Positions 43,221-50,125 of a stretch of DNA of 53,748 nt are shown here, in pieces. The notes beneath the pieces are model-generated. The model was not told the DNA's origin and did no database searches. It saw nothing but the letters and a program-made list of their open reading frames with translations. Positions within the stretch are counted from its first letter, which is position 1. Each line of letters begins with the position of its first letter. Origin of the DNA: Desulfovibrionaceae bacterium (GTDB lineage Bacteria > Desulfobacterota > Desulfovibrionia > Desulfovibrionales > Desulfovibrionaceae); the NCBI GenBank assembly GCA_031082225.1, contig JAVHLG010000026.1, forward strand, positions 1 through 53,748, in the 5' to 3' direction. The translations under genes were made by a program, and so were the position numbers.

Positions 43221-43342
43221 CGAGGACACCCCAGGCGAGAACACGCGGAGAGAAAAAGCACGGTGGACGACGCCCCCGGGAAGGGACGCGGGACATGCTT
43301 TCCACACACGCCTGTCTGTTTCGCGAGACAGCCCTGCTCCTG

Positions 43343-43496
43343 GGACAGGACGTCTTCTGGCTTCCGGCCCCCCGCATCGGTCGATGCGTGCCCGGTCCTT
43401 CCCGTTTCGCAAGCGAAACAGTGGCCCGGGCGGGGGATCATGCCGGTTACAGCGGCGCGTCCGCGACGGAGTTTCACCGTCTTCCGTTTCCTGTCC
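43343..43496 (-). promoter_or_regulatory. Cobalamin (adenosylcobalamin-type) riboswitch
   Basis: On the minus strand, P1 strands GGACAGGA (43489-43496) and TCCTGTCC (43343-43350) enclose the conserved blocks GGTGAAACTCC (43468-43478), GCTGTAACCGGC (43442-43453), GCCACTG (about 43419-43425) and GCCAGAAGACG (43351-43361). All are hallmark cobalamin-aptamer elements in the right order. It lies about 165 bases upstream of metE. Confidence 0.95.
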
Positions 43497-43678
43497 GAGT
43501 AAGGGGGGAAGATAGCCGGACCCGGCGGGAAAGTCAAAACAGCGCGGGAGATGATTCCTAAACCACCCAAAACGCAAGGCGCACCCAACGGCCCGCCTTG
43601 TCGATTTCGCATCGGCGATCCGTCAAAGGCCACCGCCCTCTGTCATGCCGCGCGGGAACGCCGCCGCCCGGCGGCGCG

Positions 43679-44086: not shown

Positions 44087-44624
<538 letters not shown>

Positions 44625-44805: not shown

Positions 44806-46890
44806 TCACTCTCCCGCGTCGCCCACACAAGCCTGCTGCACCTCGCAGGGAAAAAGCCGGTTGCGCGTGCCTCCGGAGACAGGATCGAACAATCCGTCAT
44901 TACAGAGAACATTGATATTGGCTTTTCCATCTGACGGGTTTCCCCAACCGAAATCTATCCACACCAACCCGGGAGTCGTCCTCTCGCTGAGCCTGGCCTT
45001 GACCGTTATGGTTCCCTGGGGCGATGTCACTCTCACCGTATCCCCCTCCTGGACGCCACGGACGATGGCGTCTTCCGGATGCATGCGCACCAGCGGCTCG
45101 GGATAGGAGGTGGTTATCGCCCCGAGGGTTTTGAACTTGGTATGTACGAACTGGGAGGGCCGTCGACTCGTGCCGCGCAAGGGAAATCCCTTCTCAAGAC
45201 ACCTGTCCCGCGACAAGGATTCCCCGGCAGGCTCGTCATATGTCGGCATGGGCCGTGCTCCTGCCTGCGCAAACCACCGGGAATAAAATTCAACCTTCCC
45301 GGACGGGGTGCTGCAGGGGCTGTCCATGTATTTCCGGTAGCGAACCCCCGGGAGGGCGAAGACAATCTGTTCCTCTTCCAGACGCCGCACGGTCGCGCCA
45401 TGGGCCCTGACCATGTAATCAACCCATCCACGGTCATCCTGAAATGGATAGTCCCGGTGCAGTCCCATTCGACTGGCCAACGCATATTCGACATCAAAAA
45501 CCGGCCTCGCATCTCCGACAGGCTCCACAATGGGGCGAGCCAGGGCAAAAAATCCGCCTTCGACACTCGAATAGGCGCGATATCCATAGCATTCAAACGC
45601 GGAGGCCATGGGCAGAACCAGGTCGGCGAGTTCCGTGGTGGCCGTGGGAAACAACTCGGTGACCAGCAGGAAATCCAGTTTCTCCAGAGCCATCCTGGTC
45701 CGCCGCTCGTTGGCTTGCACCAGAACGGGATTGCCGTGATGGACGATCATGGCCCTGGGCCGGTTTTCCTCCCCGCCCAGGATGGCCTCCTTGATGGCCG
45801 GAAAGGGGACATGCGGCAAAAGGGGAAAACGATCAAACCACACCCGGCGATTGATCGGCAACGCTTTGGTCGGAAGCGGCGCGGGATGAGGAAACGGCAT
45901 GAAAACGTTCCCGCCGGGAACGTCCAGATTCCCGGCGAGGCAGACCAACGTGGCGATGGTGCGCACCGCATCCACCCCGTTGGCGTACATGTCCAGCCCG
46001 TTGCCTTCATAGATGACCGCAGGCTTGGCAGCGGCATACGTTCTGGCCAACAAATCGATGACATCCGCCGGGATTCCCGTCAGTCCCTCGGCCCATCCGG
46101 GGGTAAAGTCCCTTACATGCCCGGCGAGTTCCGCCAGACCGACGGAATACCCGGCCACAAACTCTTTATCATAGATTTCGTTTGCCACGAGCACATGGAT
46201 CATGGCCAACCCCAGCGCGGTGTCCGTGCCCGGGTTGATGCGTATCCACTGGTCGGCCTCCTGGGCTGTCTCCGAGAAATAAGGATCAATGCAGATGATT
46301 TTCACTCCCCGCTCCTTGAGCCGGGGAAGAATACGATTCATGCCGCCATGGGCTGCATAGGAAGCGAAACGTTTCACGCCCACGGGGTTCGCGCCCCAGA
46401 AGATGGCAAGATTCGTAGCGTCGTAGTCGGGCTCGGTTCGCGCTCCACCAGTGACCGCCCGATAGGCCGTCATCCGAGGCGCCATGCACAGATTGCCGAT
46501 GCCCGTAAGATTTGGCGATCCCACCTCACCCATGAATTGGAGGAATCCGTCACGGGCATGGTAGGACACCGGGGCTCCCGTGCATCGCGCCAGACTCAAC
46601 GGGCCATGCGTAGCAAGAATCTCGCCCAATCTGTCCGCTGCAAAGTCCAGGGCCTCGTCCCAGGATATCCGCTGGAAGCCCGCACGCGTTTTCCGCAACG
46701 GGTACTTCAGGCGGTCATCAGCGAGAAGGATCTCTGCATTGGCCTGCGCCTTTGGACAACACCACCCCCGGTTCGTGGGATGCTCCGGATCACCGTGAAT
46801 ACGCAGACTTCCGGAAGTGCTTTTGCGTACCAGCAGGCCGCAGTTGTTATGGCAGAACTGACAAATCGTCCGCAGGGATTGGTCACCCAT
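44806..46890 (-). CDS. Molybdopterin-dependent oxidoreductase, cytoplasmic
   Basis: A 694-residue member of the DMSO reductase family. The N-terminal 4Fe-4S site is C10-x2-C13-x3-C17 with C44/C45 in GWCCPKA; the conserved Lys follows. Cys135 in GIGNLCMAPRM is the likely Mo/W ligand. The C-terminal dinucleotide domain (RMHPEDAIVRGVQEGDTVRV) is complete. No twin-arginine signal is present (start MGDQSLRTICQFC, ribosome site CAGGAG), so it works in the cytoplasm, unlike most respiratory relatives. No electron-transfer or membrane subunit is next to it; instead an ABC importer is. Reduction, hydration or hydroxylation of an imported compound is possible. Base composition is lower in GC than the neighbours. 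Confidence 0.88.
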   Translation of the reverse strand: MGDQSLRTICQFCHNNCGLLVRKSTSGSLRIHGDPEHPTNRGWCCPKAQANAEILLADDRLKYPLRKTRAGFQRISWDEALDFAADRLGEILATHGPLSLARCTGAPVSYHARDGFLQFMGEVGSPNLTGIGNLCMAPRMTAYRAVTGGARTEPDYDATNLAIFWGANPVGVKRFASYAAHGGMNRILPRLKERGVKIICIDPYFSETAQEADQWIRINPGTDTALGLAMIHVLVANEIYDKEFVAGYSVGLAELAGHVRDFTPGWAEGLTGIPADVIDLLARTYAAAKPAVIYEGNGLDMYANGVDAVRTIATLVCLAGNLDVPGGNVFMPFPHPAPLPTKALPINRRVWFDRFPLLPHVPFPAIKEAILGGEENRPRAMIVHHGNPVLVQANERRTRMALEKLDFLLVTELFPTATTELADLVLPMASAFECYGYRAYSSVEGGFFALARPIVEPVGDARPVFDVEYALASRMGLHRDYPFQDDRGWVDYMVRAHGATVRRLEEEQIVFALPGVRYRKYMDSPCSTPSGKVEFYSRWFAQAGARPMPTYDEPAGESLSRDRCLEKGFPLRGTSRRPSQFVHTKFKTLGAITTSYPEPLVRMHPEDAIVRGVQEGDTVRVTSPQGTITVKARLSERTTPGLVWIDFGWGNPSDGKANINVLCNDGLFDPVSGGTRNRLFPCEVQQACVGDAGE

Positions 46891-47061
46891 TGCAGCTCCT
46901 GACCCTTATCCGGCCTCGACCCCCCTCATGCGCCGTGATCGAAGCCAATGCGTATTGCACGGCGTCACTCCATCTCCAGCCATGCCGCCTATCCGCAGGG
47001 CCAAGGCCCGCCGCAGCACCCATGCGGTCAGGCCCTGGCGGGCTTACTGACGCCATTGCCC

Positions 47062-48096
47062 TTACTGACTTGCGGCAGCCTTTTTTTGATATGACATGTC
47101 CACAACGCTCTCCATGGGAACCGGCTTGCTGATCAGACCGACGCTCAGAGATTGCTTCTCGATGGCCTTATGCCCCTCGGCGGTGACCAGTCCGGAGTGG
47201 CTGAAAGCCCTCCGGATGTCGTCAACCACTTCCGGATTCACCGAACCCAGGAAATACTCCGCGACCTTCTCGGCGATTTCCGCACTGCTGTGCGCCTTTT
47301 CCCACTGCATGGCCCGATACGCCGCAGTGACGAACTTCTGCGCGATCTCCGGATTGGTCTTCAGATAGTCGTCCGTAGCCAGGACCACCTTCAAAGGAAA
47401 CGTGTCCGCCTCCAGGATGGCCTTATGCTGGGCGGAGTCGTTCATATCGGCCAGCACCACGGCCCCTCGGCTCAACATTTCCGCTTTCCGGATGCCGCTG
47501 CCCACTGTGGCGTCGATGTCGCCATTGATATAGGCAGGAAGAATGGCTGTTTCCGGCAGGTCGACAAAGGTCACGTCCGCATTGGGGTCGAGACCGCCAT
47601 GGATGACGATGCTGGTCGCAAAGGCGCGCGGGCCGGAGCCAGGCATTTTGGCTGAGATGGTCTTCCCCTTCAGGTCTTTGAGAGACGCGATCTCAGGCCG
47701 GGCCAGAAGGCACCAGGGATGCTTCTCCGTGGTGGTGAGCACGATCTTCAGTATTTTTCCCTTTTCGAACGTTTTCAAAGCCTGATCGTAGCTGGTGAGA
47801 CAGAATTGGATTTCACCCGCCAGCAGGGACGCGACGGACAAAGGACTCGATTTGAAGTTCATGAACTGCACCGCAAGCCCCTCTTCCTTGAAATATCCGA
47901 GCTTGTCGGCAAGATAGAGCGGGATTCCGTAATCGTCATGCCCAGGTTGTCCCACAATGATCTGTTGCAACGACTTGCCGTCAGCCGGTGAGGACGCGAC
48001 ATCTTTTTCATTACTGGCATACGCGGGCACAGAAAGAAATACTGTCACAAAAAATAATGACGCGCACCATTTCATCAAACTCTTTGCCTTATCCAT
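47062..48096 (-). CDS. NMT1/SsuA-type ABC substrate-binding protein
   Basis: About 344 residues; GAGGAGAGG precedes the ATG at 48096. A signal peptide (KWCASLFFVTVFLSVPAYA) leads to a periplasmic binding protein with IIVGQPGHDDYGIPLYLADKLGYFKEEGL, SLLAGEIQFCLTSYDQALK and LKDLKGKTISAK, all standard for the NMT1/nitrate-sulfonate-taurine family. The ligand cannot be read from this. It is third of a tight permease/ATPase set. A 170-bp gap, with a GC hairpin, separates it from the molybdoenzyme gene. Confidence 0.9.
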   Translation of the reverse strand: MDKAKSLMKWCASLFFVTVFLSVPAYASNEKDVASSPADGKSLQQIIVGQPGHDDYGIPLYLADKLGYFKEEGLAVQFMNFKSSPLSVASLLAGEIQFCLTSYDQALKTFEKGKILKIVLTTTEKHPWCLLARPEIASLKDLKGKTISAKMPGSGPRAFATSIVIHGGLDPNADVTFVDLPETAILPAYINGDIDATVGSGIRKAEMLSRGAVVLADMNDSAQHKAILEADTFPLKVVLATDDYLKTNPEIAQKFVTAAYRAMQWEKAHSSAEIAEKVAEYFLGSVNPEVVDDIRRAFSHSGLVTAEGHKAIEKQSLSVGLISKPVPMESVVDMSYQKKAAASQ

Positions 48097-48106
48097 GGTC
48101 CTCTCC

Positions 48107-48901
48107 TCATGTTGTTGAATCATTCATCTGCGGCCTCCATTTGAGAAGCCTTGTTTCCACCACACCCAGAACAGTGTTGAGCGAAGCCATGAGCAGCATG
48201 AGAACTATGATGCATGTAAAGACACGCGCAATATCATACATTCCACCGGCATACTCCACCATCCAGCCCAGCCCGGAATTGGCCCCGATGTATTCACCCA
48301 CAACCGCTCCGAGTAGAGCAGCCCCCAACCCCGCCTTGATGCCTGCCAGCATCCAGGGAATCGAAGAAGGCAACACCACTTTCAGCATGATCTGCCTGTT
48401 GCTTGCGCCCATGAGTTTGACGGCGTTGACCAGACTCTGGTCAACATTTTTGAAACCGGCGTAGGAGTTGAAAAGGACAAGGAAATAGACCATGAGCGCG
48501 GCCAGAAATATCTTCGATTCGATCCCCAGACCGAACCAAAGGATGAAGATCGGACCAAGCGCCAGTTTGGGAATTCCGTACAAAGCCATGATGATGGGGT
48601 CCAACACCCTCGCTGCGGTTTCCGCCTTTTCCAGAAAAAGCGCCGTGAGCACCCCCGCAAGCGTTCCGAAAAACAGCCCGGCCAAGGCTTCCTTCAACGT
48701 CACGACAATATGGGGAATGATTTCCCCGGAGAAAAACGCCTCCTTCATATCGATGAGGATGGCGGTTGGCTGGCTCATGAAAAAAGGGTCGAGAATCTTG
48801 AACCTGGTGAGCATCTCCCATACGGCCAGGACCGCGAAGATGAACAGCAACCGGAGGAGAAACACCCTTTTCCCGGATAGGGGGCCCGGCGCACTATGCA
48901 T
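48107..48901 (-). CDS. ABC transporter permease (SsuC/TauC type)
   Basis: A 264-residue inner-membrane protein with about six helices and the EAA-type loop ending in LMGASNRQIMLKVVLPSSIPWMLAG, where it contacts the ATPase. ALYGIPKLALGPIFILWFG is the family signature. Its start overlaps the ATPase stop by 8 bp, and the binding-protein gene begins 10 bp after its own stop, so the three are translated as one set. Confidence 0.93.
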   Translation of the reverse strand: MHSAPGPLSGKRVFLLRLLFIFAVLAVWEMLTRFKILDPFFMSQPTAILIDMKEAFFSGEIIPHIVVTLKEALAGLFFGTLAGVLTALFLEKAETAARVLDPIIMALYGIPKLALGPIFILWFGLGIESKIFLAALMVYFLVLFNSYAGFKNVDQSLVNAVKLMGASNRQIMLKVVLPSSIPWMLAGIKAGLGAALLGAVVGEYIGANSGLGWMVEYAGGMYDIARVFTCIIVLMLLMASLNTVLGVVETRLLKWRPQMNDSTT

Positions 48902-49757
48902 CCTGGCCGCCCTTGGTCTTTACGACCTCCTCCCGCAAGTCATTCCAGATAAGTTTCTGCAAGGCGACGAACTCGGGCTGAAACCGTGTTTCAAGGGCCG
49001 ACCTGGGACGGGGAATGGGGATATCGTATTCGTTTTTGACCGTAGACGGCCTCGCCGTCAGAAGCACAACGCGATCGGAAAGAGTGATCGCTTCCGCAAG
49101 ATCATGCGTGACAAAGACAATGGTTTTTTTCGTTTCCTGCCAGACCTTTAGTATCTCGTCCTGAAGCATCTCTTTGGTAAAGACATCAAGAGCGCCAAAC
49201 GGCTCATCCATAAACAACACTTCCGAATCCGCCGCCAGGATGCGGATGATCACGACCCGTTTCTTCATGCCCCCCGAGAGTTCATGGGGATAACTTTTCT
49301 CAAAACCGCTCAAACCGGCTTTATGGATCAGATGCCTGGCCCGTTCACGGCGCTCAGCCTTGGGCATTCCACGGATCTCCAAGGACAGTTCGACATTCTC
49401 TAACGTGTTTCGCCATGGCATCAGGGTATCTGCCTGAGACATGTACCCGATACGCTGGGTCACTCCGAGAAGTCGACATCCGTCAAGGAAGACGTCCCCC
49501 GCACCGGGCCTTATCAAACCCGACATGATGTTGAGGAGCGTGCTCTTGCCGCATCCGCTCGGCCCCACAATGGCGACGAATTCCTGATCACGGATATTGA
49601 GATCAACGGATTGAAGGGAGACCGTGGCGGCCCCTGACGGGGATGCGTACACATGACTTATCCCGCAGACCGACAACTTAACGCCCTCAGAGAGCACCGC
49701 TTCGCCTGGATTTCTGGCTATCCCTCGTATCGCCTTCCCGGCGGAACCATCTTGCAT
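48894..49757 (-). CDS. ABC transporter ATPase (SsuB/TauB type)
   Basis: About 287 residues. The ATG at 49757 is picked because GTAGG lies six bases ahead; ATG 49763 and TTG 49775 are in frame. Walker A GPSGCGKSTLL, Q-loop MSQADTLMPWRNTLENV, signature LSGGMKKRVVIIRIL and Walker B LFMDEPFGALD are complete. The MPWRN form is typical of nitrate/sulfonate/taurine importers. It is first in the four-gene unit (ATPase, permease, binding protein, molybdoenzyme) behind a long AT-rich leader. Confidence 0.93.
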   Translation of the reverse strand: MQDGSAGKAIRGIARNPGEAVLSEGVKLSVCGISHVYASPSGAATVSLQSVDLNIRDQEFVAIVGPSGCGKSTLLNIMSGLIRPGAGDVFLDGCRLLGVTQRIGYMSQADTLMPWRNTLENVELSLEIRGMPKAERRERARHLIHKAGLSGFEKSYPHELSGGMKKRVVIIRILAADSEVLFMDEPFGALDVFTKEMLQDEILKVWQETKKTIVFVTHDLAEAITLSDRVVLLTARPSTVKNEYDIPIPRPRSALETRFQPEFVALQKLIWNDLREEVVKTKGGQDA

Positions 49758-49979
49758 GTTCATCCTACCAGACAAATCAAATTATATGCTCATGAAAACA
49801 TATTCTACGGGGACGAATGCAGGTCATTTGAATGTTGCCTCACCTGGTACAACAGGATTCATCACCTATTTTGGCACACACCTTGAACAATATCCTGGCG
49901 AACAGACCGCATGTCACATGTCAATATCGCCATTCTCATCTCGCTTGAACTGATGCATCAATGCTTTCAAAGCCAACTC

Positions 49980-50008
49980 TGGATATATTCATGAATCCTA
50001 TTTGTCAA
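49980..50008 (-). promoter_or_regulatory. Candidate promoter of the ABC-molybdoenzyme unit
   Basis: On the minus strand TTGACA (50003-50008), a 17-base spacer and TATCCA (49980-49985) lie in a very AT-rich gap (49758-50060), leaving a leader of about 220 bases. The gap also has a TTCATGAA palindrome in the spacer and a doubled ATGTCA word at about 49913-49922. No gene is seen in it. Confidence 0.45.
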
Positions 50009-50060
50009 ATAGATATAATCTATATTTCCACAGGCAATGTATCGCATCCGTCTATTTCTC

Positions 50061-50095
50061 AATAAAAAAGGCGGACCCGAAGGCCCGCCTTTCGC
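50061..50095 (-). terminator. Terminator of the porDAB operon
   Basis: Stem GGCGGGCC/GGTCCGCC with a TTCG-type loop; six T follow on the minus strand, about 30 bp after the porB stop. Confidence 0.93.
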
Positions 50096-50125
50096 ATTGT
50101 CGTTTGCTGGTGCGAGATGTCGCGC

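Follow-up and report, generated by a model that had tools for sequence, protein, structure and literature searches.

A molybdenum- or tungsten-bisPGD enzyme joined to an NMT1-type ABC importer in Desulfolutivibrio: a candidate pathway of import and cytoplasmic conversion

The stretch of DNA analysed here, called the window (contig JAVHLG010000026.1 of assembly GCA_031082225.1, 53,748 nucleotides (nt)), is assigned by its genomic kinship with a same-genus genome (G002) to a species of Desulfolutivibrio. On its minus strand, from 49775 to 44806, the list of open reading frames (ORFs) shows in this order the genes of an ATP-binding cassette (ABC) transporter ATPase, a permease, a periplasmic binding protein and an enzyme of the dimethyl sulfoxide (DMSO) reductase family:

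48894..49775, minus strand: ABC transporter ATPase (PF00005, 103 bits), with a candidate TTG start at 49775
48107..48901, minus strand: ABC transporter permease (PF00528, 108 bits)
47062..48123, minus strand: periplasmic binding protein of the NMT1/SsuA family (PF09084), with an N-terminal signal-like segment recognized by eye
44806..46890, minus strand: putative single-subunit Mo/W enzyme of the bis-pyranopterin guanine dinucleotide (bis-PGD) type, 694 residues (PF04879, PF00384 and PF01568; residues and trees below)

A sequence-only reading had placed these four same-strand genes in one unit, which is borne out by the ORFs and by Pfam domains exceeding their curated cut-offs (ABC_tran, BPD_transp_1, NMT1, and Molybdop_Fe4S4 with Molybdopterin and Molydop_binding). 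It had started the ATPase at 49757; the frame was correct, but 49757 is an internal ATG of an ORF that runs on to the TTG at 49775, and 49775, 49763 and 49757 are all candidate starts. The ATPase, permease and binding protein genes overlap by a few bases, and a 171-nt gap precedes the enzyme gene. The GC content is 0.597 for the enzyme, 0.551 for the binding protein, 0.535 for the permease and 0.546 for the ATPase, and at third codon positions (GC3) it is 0.635-0.691 across the four genes compared with 0.835-0.885 in the three flanking genes (metE, korA and korB, labelled by eye), in agreement with the lower-GC block described earlier. Since the GC3 of all four genes lies below that of their neighbours, the unit looks foreign to its surroundings, and the whole of it, enzyme included, was probably acquired horizontally.

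The enzyme scores 43.9, 133.3 and 81.6 bits against Molybdop_Fe4S4, Molybdopterin and Molydop_binding, respectively, which places it in the DMSO reductase (bis-PGD) family. The 4Fe-4S site and the likely metal ligand Cys135 recognized at first sight both hold in alignments: C10, C13, C17 and C45 align with the cluster cysteines of acetylene hydratase and formate dehydrogenase, and Cys135 falls where acetylene hydratase, polysulfide reductase and formate dehydrogenase have their metal ligand and is kept, as is Arg139, in all 15 rows of the clade described below. Cys135 presumably binds Mo or W. Formate dehydrogenases carry Cys or selenocysteine followed by His at the metal site; the residue after Cys135 is Met136 in the window enzyme and M, H, F, A or S across the clade (His in 4/15 rows), and this type of Cys-His pair is not conserved. 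The position of acetylene hydratase Asp13, which is His14 in the window enzyme, holds His in 14 of the 15 rows and Tyr in the remaining one. By sequence, the best match in the PDB is the polysulfide/thiosulfate reductase catalytic subunit 2vpw (~30% identity over aligned pieces), which has the same LCxAPR motif around the ligand Cys, and the second best is the acetylene hydratase of Pelobacter acetylenicus, 2e7z (~28% over aligned pieces), which likewise has one 4Fe-4S cluster and a Cys ligand. As previously noticed, the enzyme shows no Sec or Tat signal to the eye at its N terminus (no predictor was run), its open frame extending no more than 5 codons beyond the ORF (699 versus 694), and no Fe-S or membrane partner gene is seen within the four-gene unit.

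The binding protein reaches 95.3 bits with PF09084, against a gathering score of 20.5, and thus belongs to the NMT1/SsuA family. The three-gene architecture is that of SsuABC, TauABC and other NMT1-type importers; unlike them, the importer is joined to a molybdoenzyme gene, and the substrate-specific models seen all fall below their cut-offs. The binding protein scores 82.5 bits with TIGR01728 (aliphatic sulfonate SsuA; curated cut-off 163.5), all 17 NCBIfam matches of the permease lie under cut-off, and none of the ATPase reaches it among the best 25 of 187 matches.

A profile built from five enzyme sequences retrieves members of a well-delimited clade in at least 7 of 395 genomes of the phylum, at 811-1477 bits with the next best at 455. 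This count, like that for the order given below, is a lower bound, larger groups having been sampled and two to five candidates scored per genome. The clade comprises 16 loci in 15 genomes (L116, on the same contig as L021, being counted once). In a tree of 59 rows, the 15 full-length members (the incomplete L105 was left out of both trees) form one group with 100/100 support; polysulfide reductase groups with two other enzymes of the window genome, L001 and L002, and, less firmly, with a third, L008, and acetylene hydratase with other Desulfobacterota enzymes. Three rows of this tree, own_L005, own_L006 and own_L007, are the longest ORFs of their loci and are incomplete or probably in the wrong frame (15-22% identity). 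The clade is retained (14 rows; SH-aLRT 100) in a quick tree of 41 rows, from which 18 of the 59 (own_L004 to own_L008, Ec_NapA, X_L023 and eleven others) were dropped to remove incomplete or wrong-frame sequences, long branches and close relatives. Approximately unbiased (AU) tests on the quick tree reject a grouping of the clade with polysulfide reductase (p-AU 0.0004) and are borderline for acetylene hydratase (p-AU 0.051), which forms a separate group in both trees; formate dehydrogenases, for which no AU test was made, also group apart in both. As judged from these trees, the clade is separate from polysulfide reductase, from formate dehydrogenases and, less firmly, from acetylene hydratase, so that the distinctness expected from the first inspection stands for the first two families and is borderline for the third.

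The order ATPase-permease-binding protein-enzyme is identical in five genomes: the window genome (G000), G001, G002, G159 and L022. In both other Desulfolutivibrio genomes searched, the unit occupies the same korAB-to-metE interval, and the enzymes are 94% and 78% identical to that of the window. Within the order, the clade enzyme occurs in at least 4 of 297 genomes (2/55 genera), the fourth being G159, which belongs to another genus of the same family and has all four genes. L022, the metagenome-assembled genome (MAG) DeMMO2_24, keeps the order on a contig that begins inside the ATPase. Permease orthologs are found in the other four linked genomes at 75-92% identity, and an ATPase ortholog in 5/5 counting the window, cut off by the contig start in L022. 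Between genera, the binding protein and the enzyme are ~60-64% identical, the permease and the ATPase 73-80%.

A close binding protein is present in at least 3 of 395 genomes of the phylum, all Desulfolutivibrio (684-703 bits), and in 2/7 further genomes that carry the clade enzyme, and it adjoins the enzyme in all five genomes that have it. In this respect, the linkage of importer and enzyme is stronger than the sequence of the window alone could show. The converse does not hold, since 11 of the 16 clade loci are without an NMT1-type importer in the DNA examined, and in five of the genomes concerned, searched whole, no close binding protein was found. The linkage proposed from the window thus stands for the binding protein and fails for the enzyme clade as a whole. 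The five importer-linked enzymes form one group in the tree (support 99/95), which would fit a single origin of the linkage. A fourth, distant binding-protein match in the phylum (205 bits) is found in G351, a genome that is not among the listed phylum matches of the enzyme profile; at L103:8464-12127, this genome apparently contains, by eye, two binding-protein genes in tandem that are distantly related to that of the unit, along with a permease and an ATPase, near a thiM-like gene.

Several clade members lie near other transporters and near genes of organic-compound metabolism. In L021 (MAG HGW-Deltaproteobacteria-15), the enzyme gene is divergent from that of an MtaA/CmuA-like methyltransferase (URO-D by Pfam), behind which come DctP and what look by eye like DctQ and DctM. 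Encoded convergently with the enzyme are an AcsV-like activator, a corrinoid protein, another methyltransferase of the UroD type and an MtrH-family protein; in NCBIfam, the MtrH-family match is over its cut-off and the others are below. L106:2876-13398 encodes a major facilitator superfamily (MFS) transporter that scores best, among NCBIfam models, with the aromatic-acid symporter family (324 bits, under the cut-off of 419), a 6-hydroxycyclohex-1-ene-1-carbonyl-CoA dehydrogenase (437 bits, cut-off 339), FmdE (over cut-off), and acyl-CoA ligase-like, corrinoid protein-like and two UroD-type methyltransferase-like genes, all below NCBIfam cut-offs. The enzyme gene stands behind DctP and an FAD oxidoreductase in L068, and in L105 it shares a strand with genes for an FAD oxidoreductase, a TAXI (TRAP-associated extracytoplasmic immunogenic) binding protein and a permease (both by BLAST and eye), and a gamma-glutamyltransferase (over cut-off), TRAP denoting tripartite ATP-independent periplasmic transporters. 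TAXI genes (Pfam) lie a few kb from the enzyme in another orientation in L067. The L113 enzyme gene is preceded, at the end of its contig, by a partial gene for a LivF/UrtE-like ATPase and followed by one for an Amidohydro_2 protein; an SBP_bac_5 protein and an MFS protein are encoded in L114, and an MFS fragment in L115. It seems that the clade combines a single enzyme scaffold with importers that can be exchanged.

The reading that we favour, with a probability of roughly 0.6, is that a compound would be imported by the ABC system and then converted in the cytoplasm by the Mo/W enzyme. The NMT1-type protein would capture one small organic compound in the periplasm, the permease and ATPase would carry it into the cytoplasm, and there it would be converted by the enzyme, a soluble protein of one subunit with a single 4Fe-4S cluster and a bis-pyranopterin site at which Cys135 would ligate Mo or W. 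Such a pathway had been regarded as unusual from the window, a view that gives way to a precedent: cytoplasmic catechol dehydroxylases are described with co-located transporters thought to import their substrate (PMC12771579). By that description, the enzymes of Gordonibacter and Ellagibacter (Eadh and others) resemble the present one in being bis-PGD proteins with no export signal and a co-located transporter, and differ in having genes of 4Fe-4S proteins and MFS transporters where the unit has an ABC importer of the NMT1 type and lacks a partner gene (PMC12771579). Catechol dehydroxylases are reported to be closest to acetylene hydratase, and carriers of their homologues include anaerobic aromatic degraders such as Desulfobacula (PMC7028382). 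Because of these parallels, of L106 and of the corrinoid-methyltransferase-like genes that L106 and L021 both have, and that would be compatible with methoxylated aromatics being O-demethylated, an oxygenated aromatic acid or a related carboxylic acid may tentatively be proposed as the substrate. The reaction would then be either a reductive dehydroxylation, with ferredoxin or flavodoxin supplying the electrons, or a redox-neutral one, namely transhydroxylation or hydration.

A number of observations weigh against import and conversion as outlined here, and in particular against an aromatic substrate. Most of the aromatic context is contributed by a single clade member, L106, at 46% identity, and the four-gene unit lacks the Fe-S partner gene that is reported to accompany catechol dehydroxylases of the Gordonibacter type. 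D. sulfodismutans is known for sulfur disproportionation rather than for aromatic use. The rows of the trees include no catechol dehydroxylase sequence. No importer is found among the neighbours examined in L066, L069 and L104, part of which were library-searched, and no convincing one among those of L115. Transporter genes are common in general, and although an importer of a seeded type occurs within 7 kb (BLAST) at 10/16 clade loci, against 5/21 loci of next-best enzymes (TRAP/TAXI) and 0/9 distant loci, the seeds were drawn from the clade and next-best sets, so that the contrast is biased and serves as description only. Among the nine distant enzyme loci, a corrinoid protein lies near one (L026) and an acyl-CoA ligase near another (L032), so such neighbours are not specific to the clade. 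Their presence at these control loci and the sub-threshold score of the L106 transporter lower confidence in the aromatic proposal. Structure models of the binding protein and the enzyme, made from alignments of 2 and 3 sequences, have mean predicted local distance difference test (pLDDT) values of 33.8 and 33.4 and were left unused.

Among the alternatives, an acetylene-hydratase-like, redox-neutral hydratase acting on the imported compound overlaps with the favoured reading and appears unlikely in its own right. Acetylene hydratase is the second-best PDB match, has both the Cys ligand and Lys at position 47 in common with the enzyme and is not firmly rejected as grouping with the clade, and a hydratase would need no redox partner gene; against this, the Asp13 that is replaced in every clade row is described as specific to the acetylene hydratase subfamily, its change to Ala abolishing activity (PMC12096430). 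It is somewhat less probable that importer and enzyme are adjacent through common acquisition only and handle different compounds. The clade loci lacking an NMT1-type importer and the 171-nt gap before the enzyme gene speak for this, but the gene order is kept across three lineages at ~60% identity, and the close binding protein is never found without the enzyme (5/5).

A cytoplasmic thiosulfate or polysulfide reductase fed by an importer of sulfur compounds is doubtful. Polysulfide/thiosulfate reductases have B and C partner subunits and an export signal, neither of which is seen by eye in the unit; joining the clade with polysulfide reductase is rejected on the quick tree, that family is joined instead by two other enzymes from the window genome, and some clade relatives sit in organic-compound loci. 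The proposal draws on the best PDB match, on the common LCxAPR motif and on the genus, which includes a sulfur-compound disproportionator, D. sulfodismutans being listed among disproportionating strains (PMC12998232). Import of an organosulfonate or other organosulfur compound and its cleavage by the enzyme is equally hard to sustain, since the taurine and sulfonate models among the matches of binding protein, permease and ATPase all remain below cut-off and no desulfonation gene is seen in the unit.

Upstream of the ATPase gene lies the AT-rich leader noticed at the outset, within which one repeat stands out:

49776..50125, minus strand: AT-rich leader of the unit, 350 nt, GC 0.429
50009..50023, minus strand: putative operator-like inverted repeat ATAGA-N5-TCTAT, exact in the window leader

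The leader contains no Rfam family, riboswitches included, at gathering threshold. The inverted repeat is exact in three of the four leaders compared (window, G001 and L065) and has one mismatch in G002, and in Desulfolutivibrio leaders a -35-like TTGACA is contained in the sequence made up of its right arm plus the following TTGACAAATAG; this TTGACA site is not listed by a consensus promoter scan. Promoter and terminator scans give 4 promoter-like sites where 2.7 would be expected, and 8 terminator-like sites where the expectation is 5.8, which is uninformative, as is the genome-wide occurrence of the repeat (3 places versus 2 for a reversed control). Because the repeat is hardly commoner than its control, a dedicated regulator acting there is only a suggestion.

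A flavodoxin-like gene (by eye; 44087-44584, same strand) lies 0.2-0.3 kb downstream of the enzyme gene. As a dedicated redox partner it was rejected as a fixed part of the unit, being ~2.2 kb off in G002 and having no match in 17 kb of G001. MetE was treated as unrelated to the unit, because a cobalamin riboswitch (window 43330-43541, minus strand) precedes metE in all three Desulfolutivibrio genomes. In G159, a tRNA gene, a common spot of island insertion, stands beside the 3' end of the enzyme gene (L065:9665-9748, plus strand). A search of a plasmid collection gives 883 records with a match, all below 60% identity and the first-ranked at 31.0% (best 60 of 883), and a 10-kb stretch of the second contig of G002 matches plasmid NZ_CP045505.1 of Desulfolutivibrio sulfodismutans DSM 3696 at 100% identity.

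The window genome has eight Molybdopterin-domain matches, two of which contain one in-frame TGA (C127 and C61) and are probably selenocysteine formate dehydrogenases. Other orphan bis-PGD enzymes in the material have recurrent neighbours of their own: related ones at L070:4234-7721 and L074:6236-9754 adjoin a UbiD-like gene (by eye; 72% identical between loci), and those at L072, L078 and L084 stand beside genes that look by eye like xanthine dehydrogenase (86-87% identity to the copy in L078); TAXI-TRAP and acyl-CoA-ligase-like genes are also present in L078 and L084.

Import followed by cytoplasmic bis-PGD conversion is already published in outline; novelty appears to lie in the enzyme clade, in the way it is paired with an NMT1-type ABC importer and in its repeated occurrence close to importers of other types. 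Literature searches for a Desulfovibrio NMT1 importer with a molybdopterin oxidoreductase, for a molybdopterin enzyme in an O-demethylation, corrinoid, dehydroxylation or TRAP context, and for polysulfide reductase residues returned nothing, which does not prove absence from print.

For many bis-PGD enzymes of sulfate reducers and related MAGs, no substrate has been assigned, and the conserved binding protein of the unit offers a direct handle, as its ligand would probably name the substrate of the enzyme. More speculatively, the clade might represent a new class of cytoplasmic Mo/W-bisPGD enzymes of the Desulfobacterota that act on imported phenolic or aromatic acids by removing, shifting or adding a hydroxyl group, with importers that differ by lineage; this would imply that Desulfolutivibrio can, unsuspected until now, make use of plant-derived aromatics, for instance by taking them as electron acceptors. 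Should the substrate prove aromatic, the dehydroxylase-type chemistry of gut Actinobacteria would be extended to a sulfate-reducing genus.

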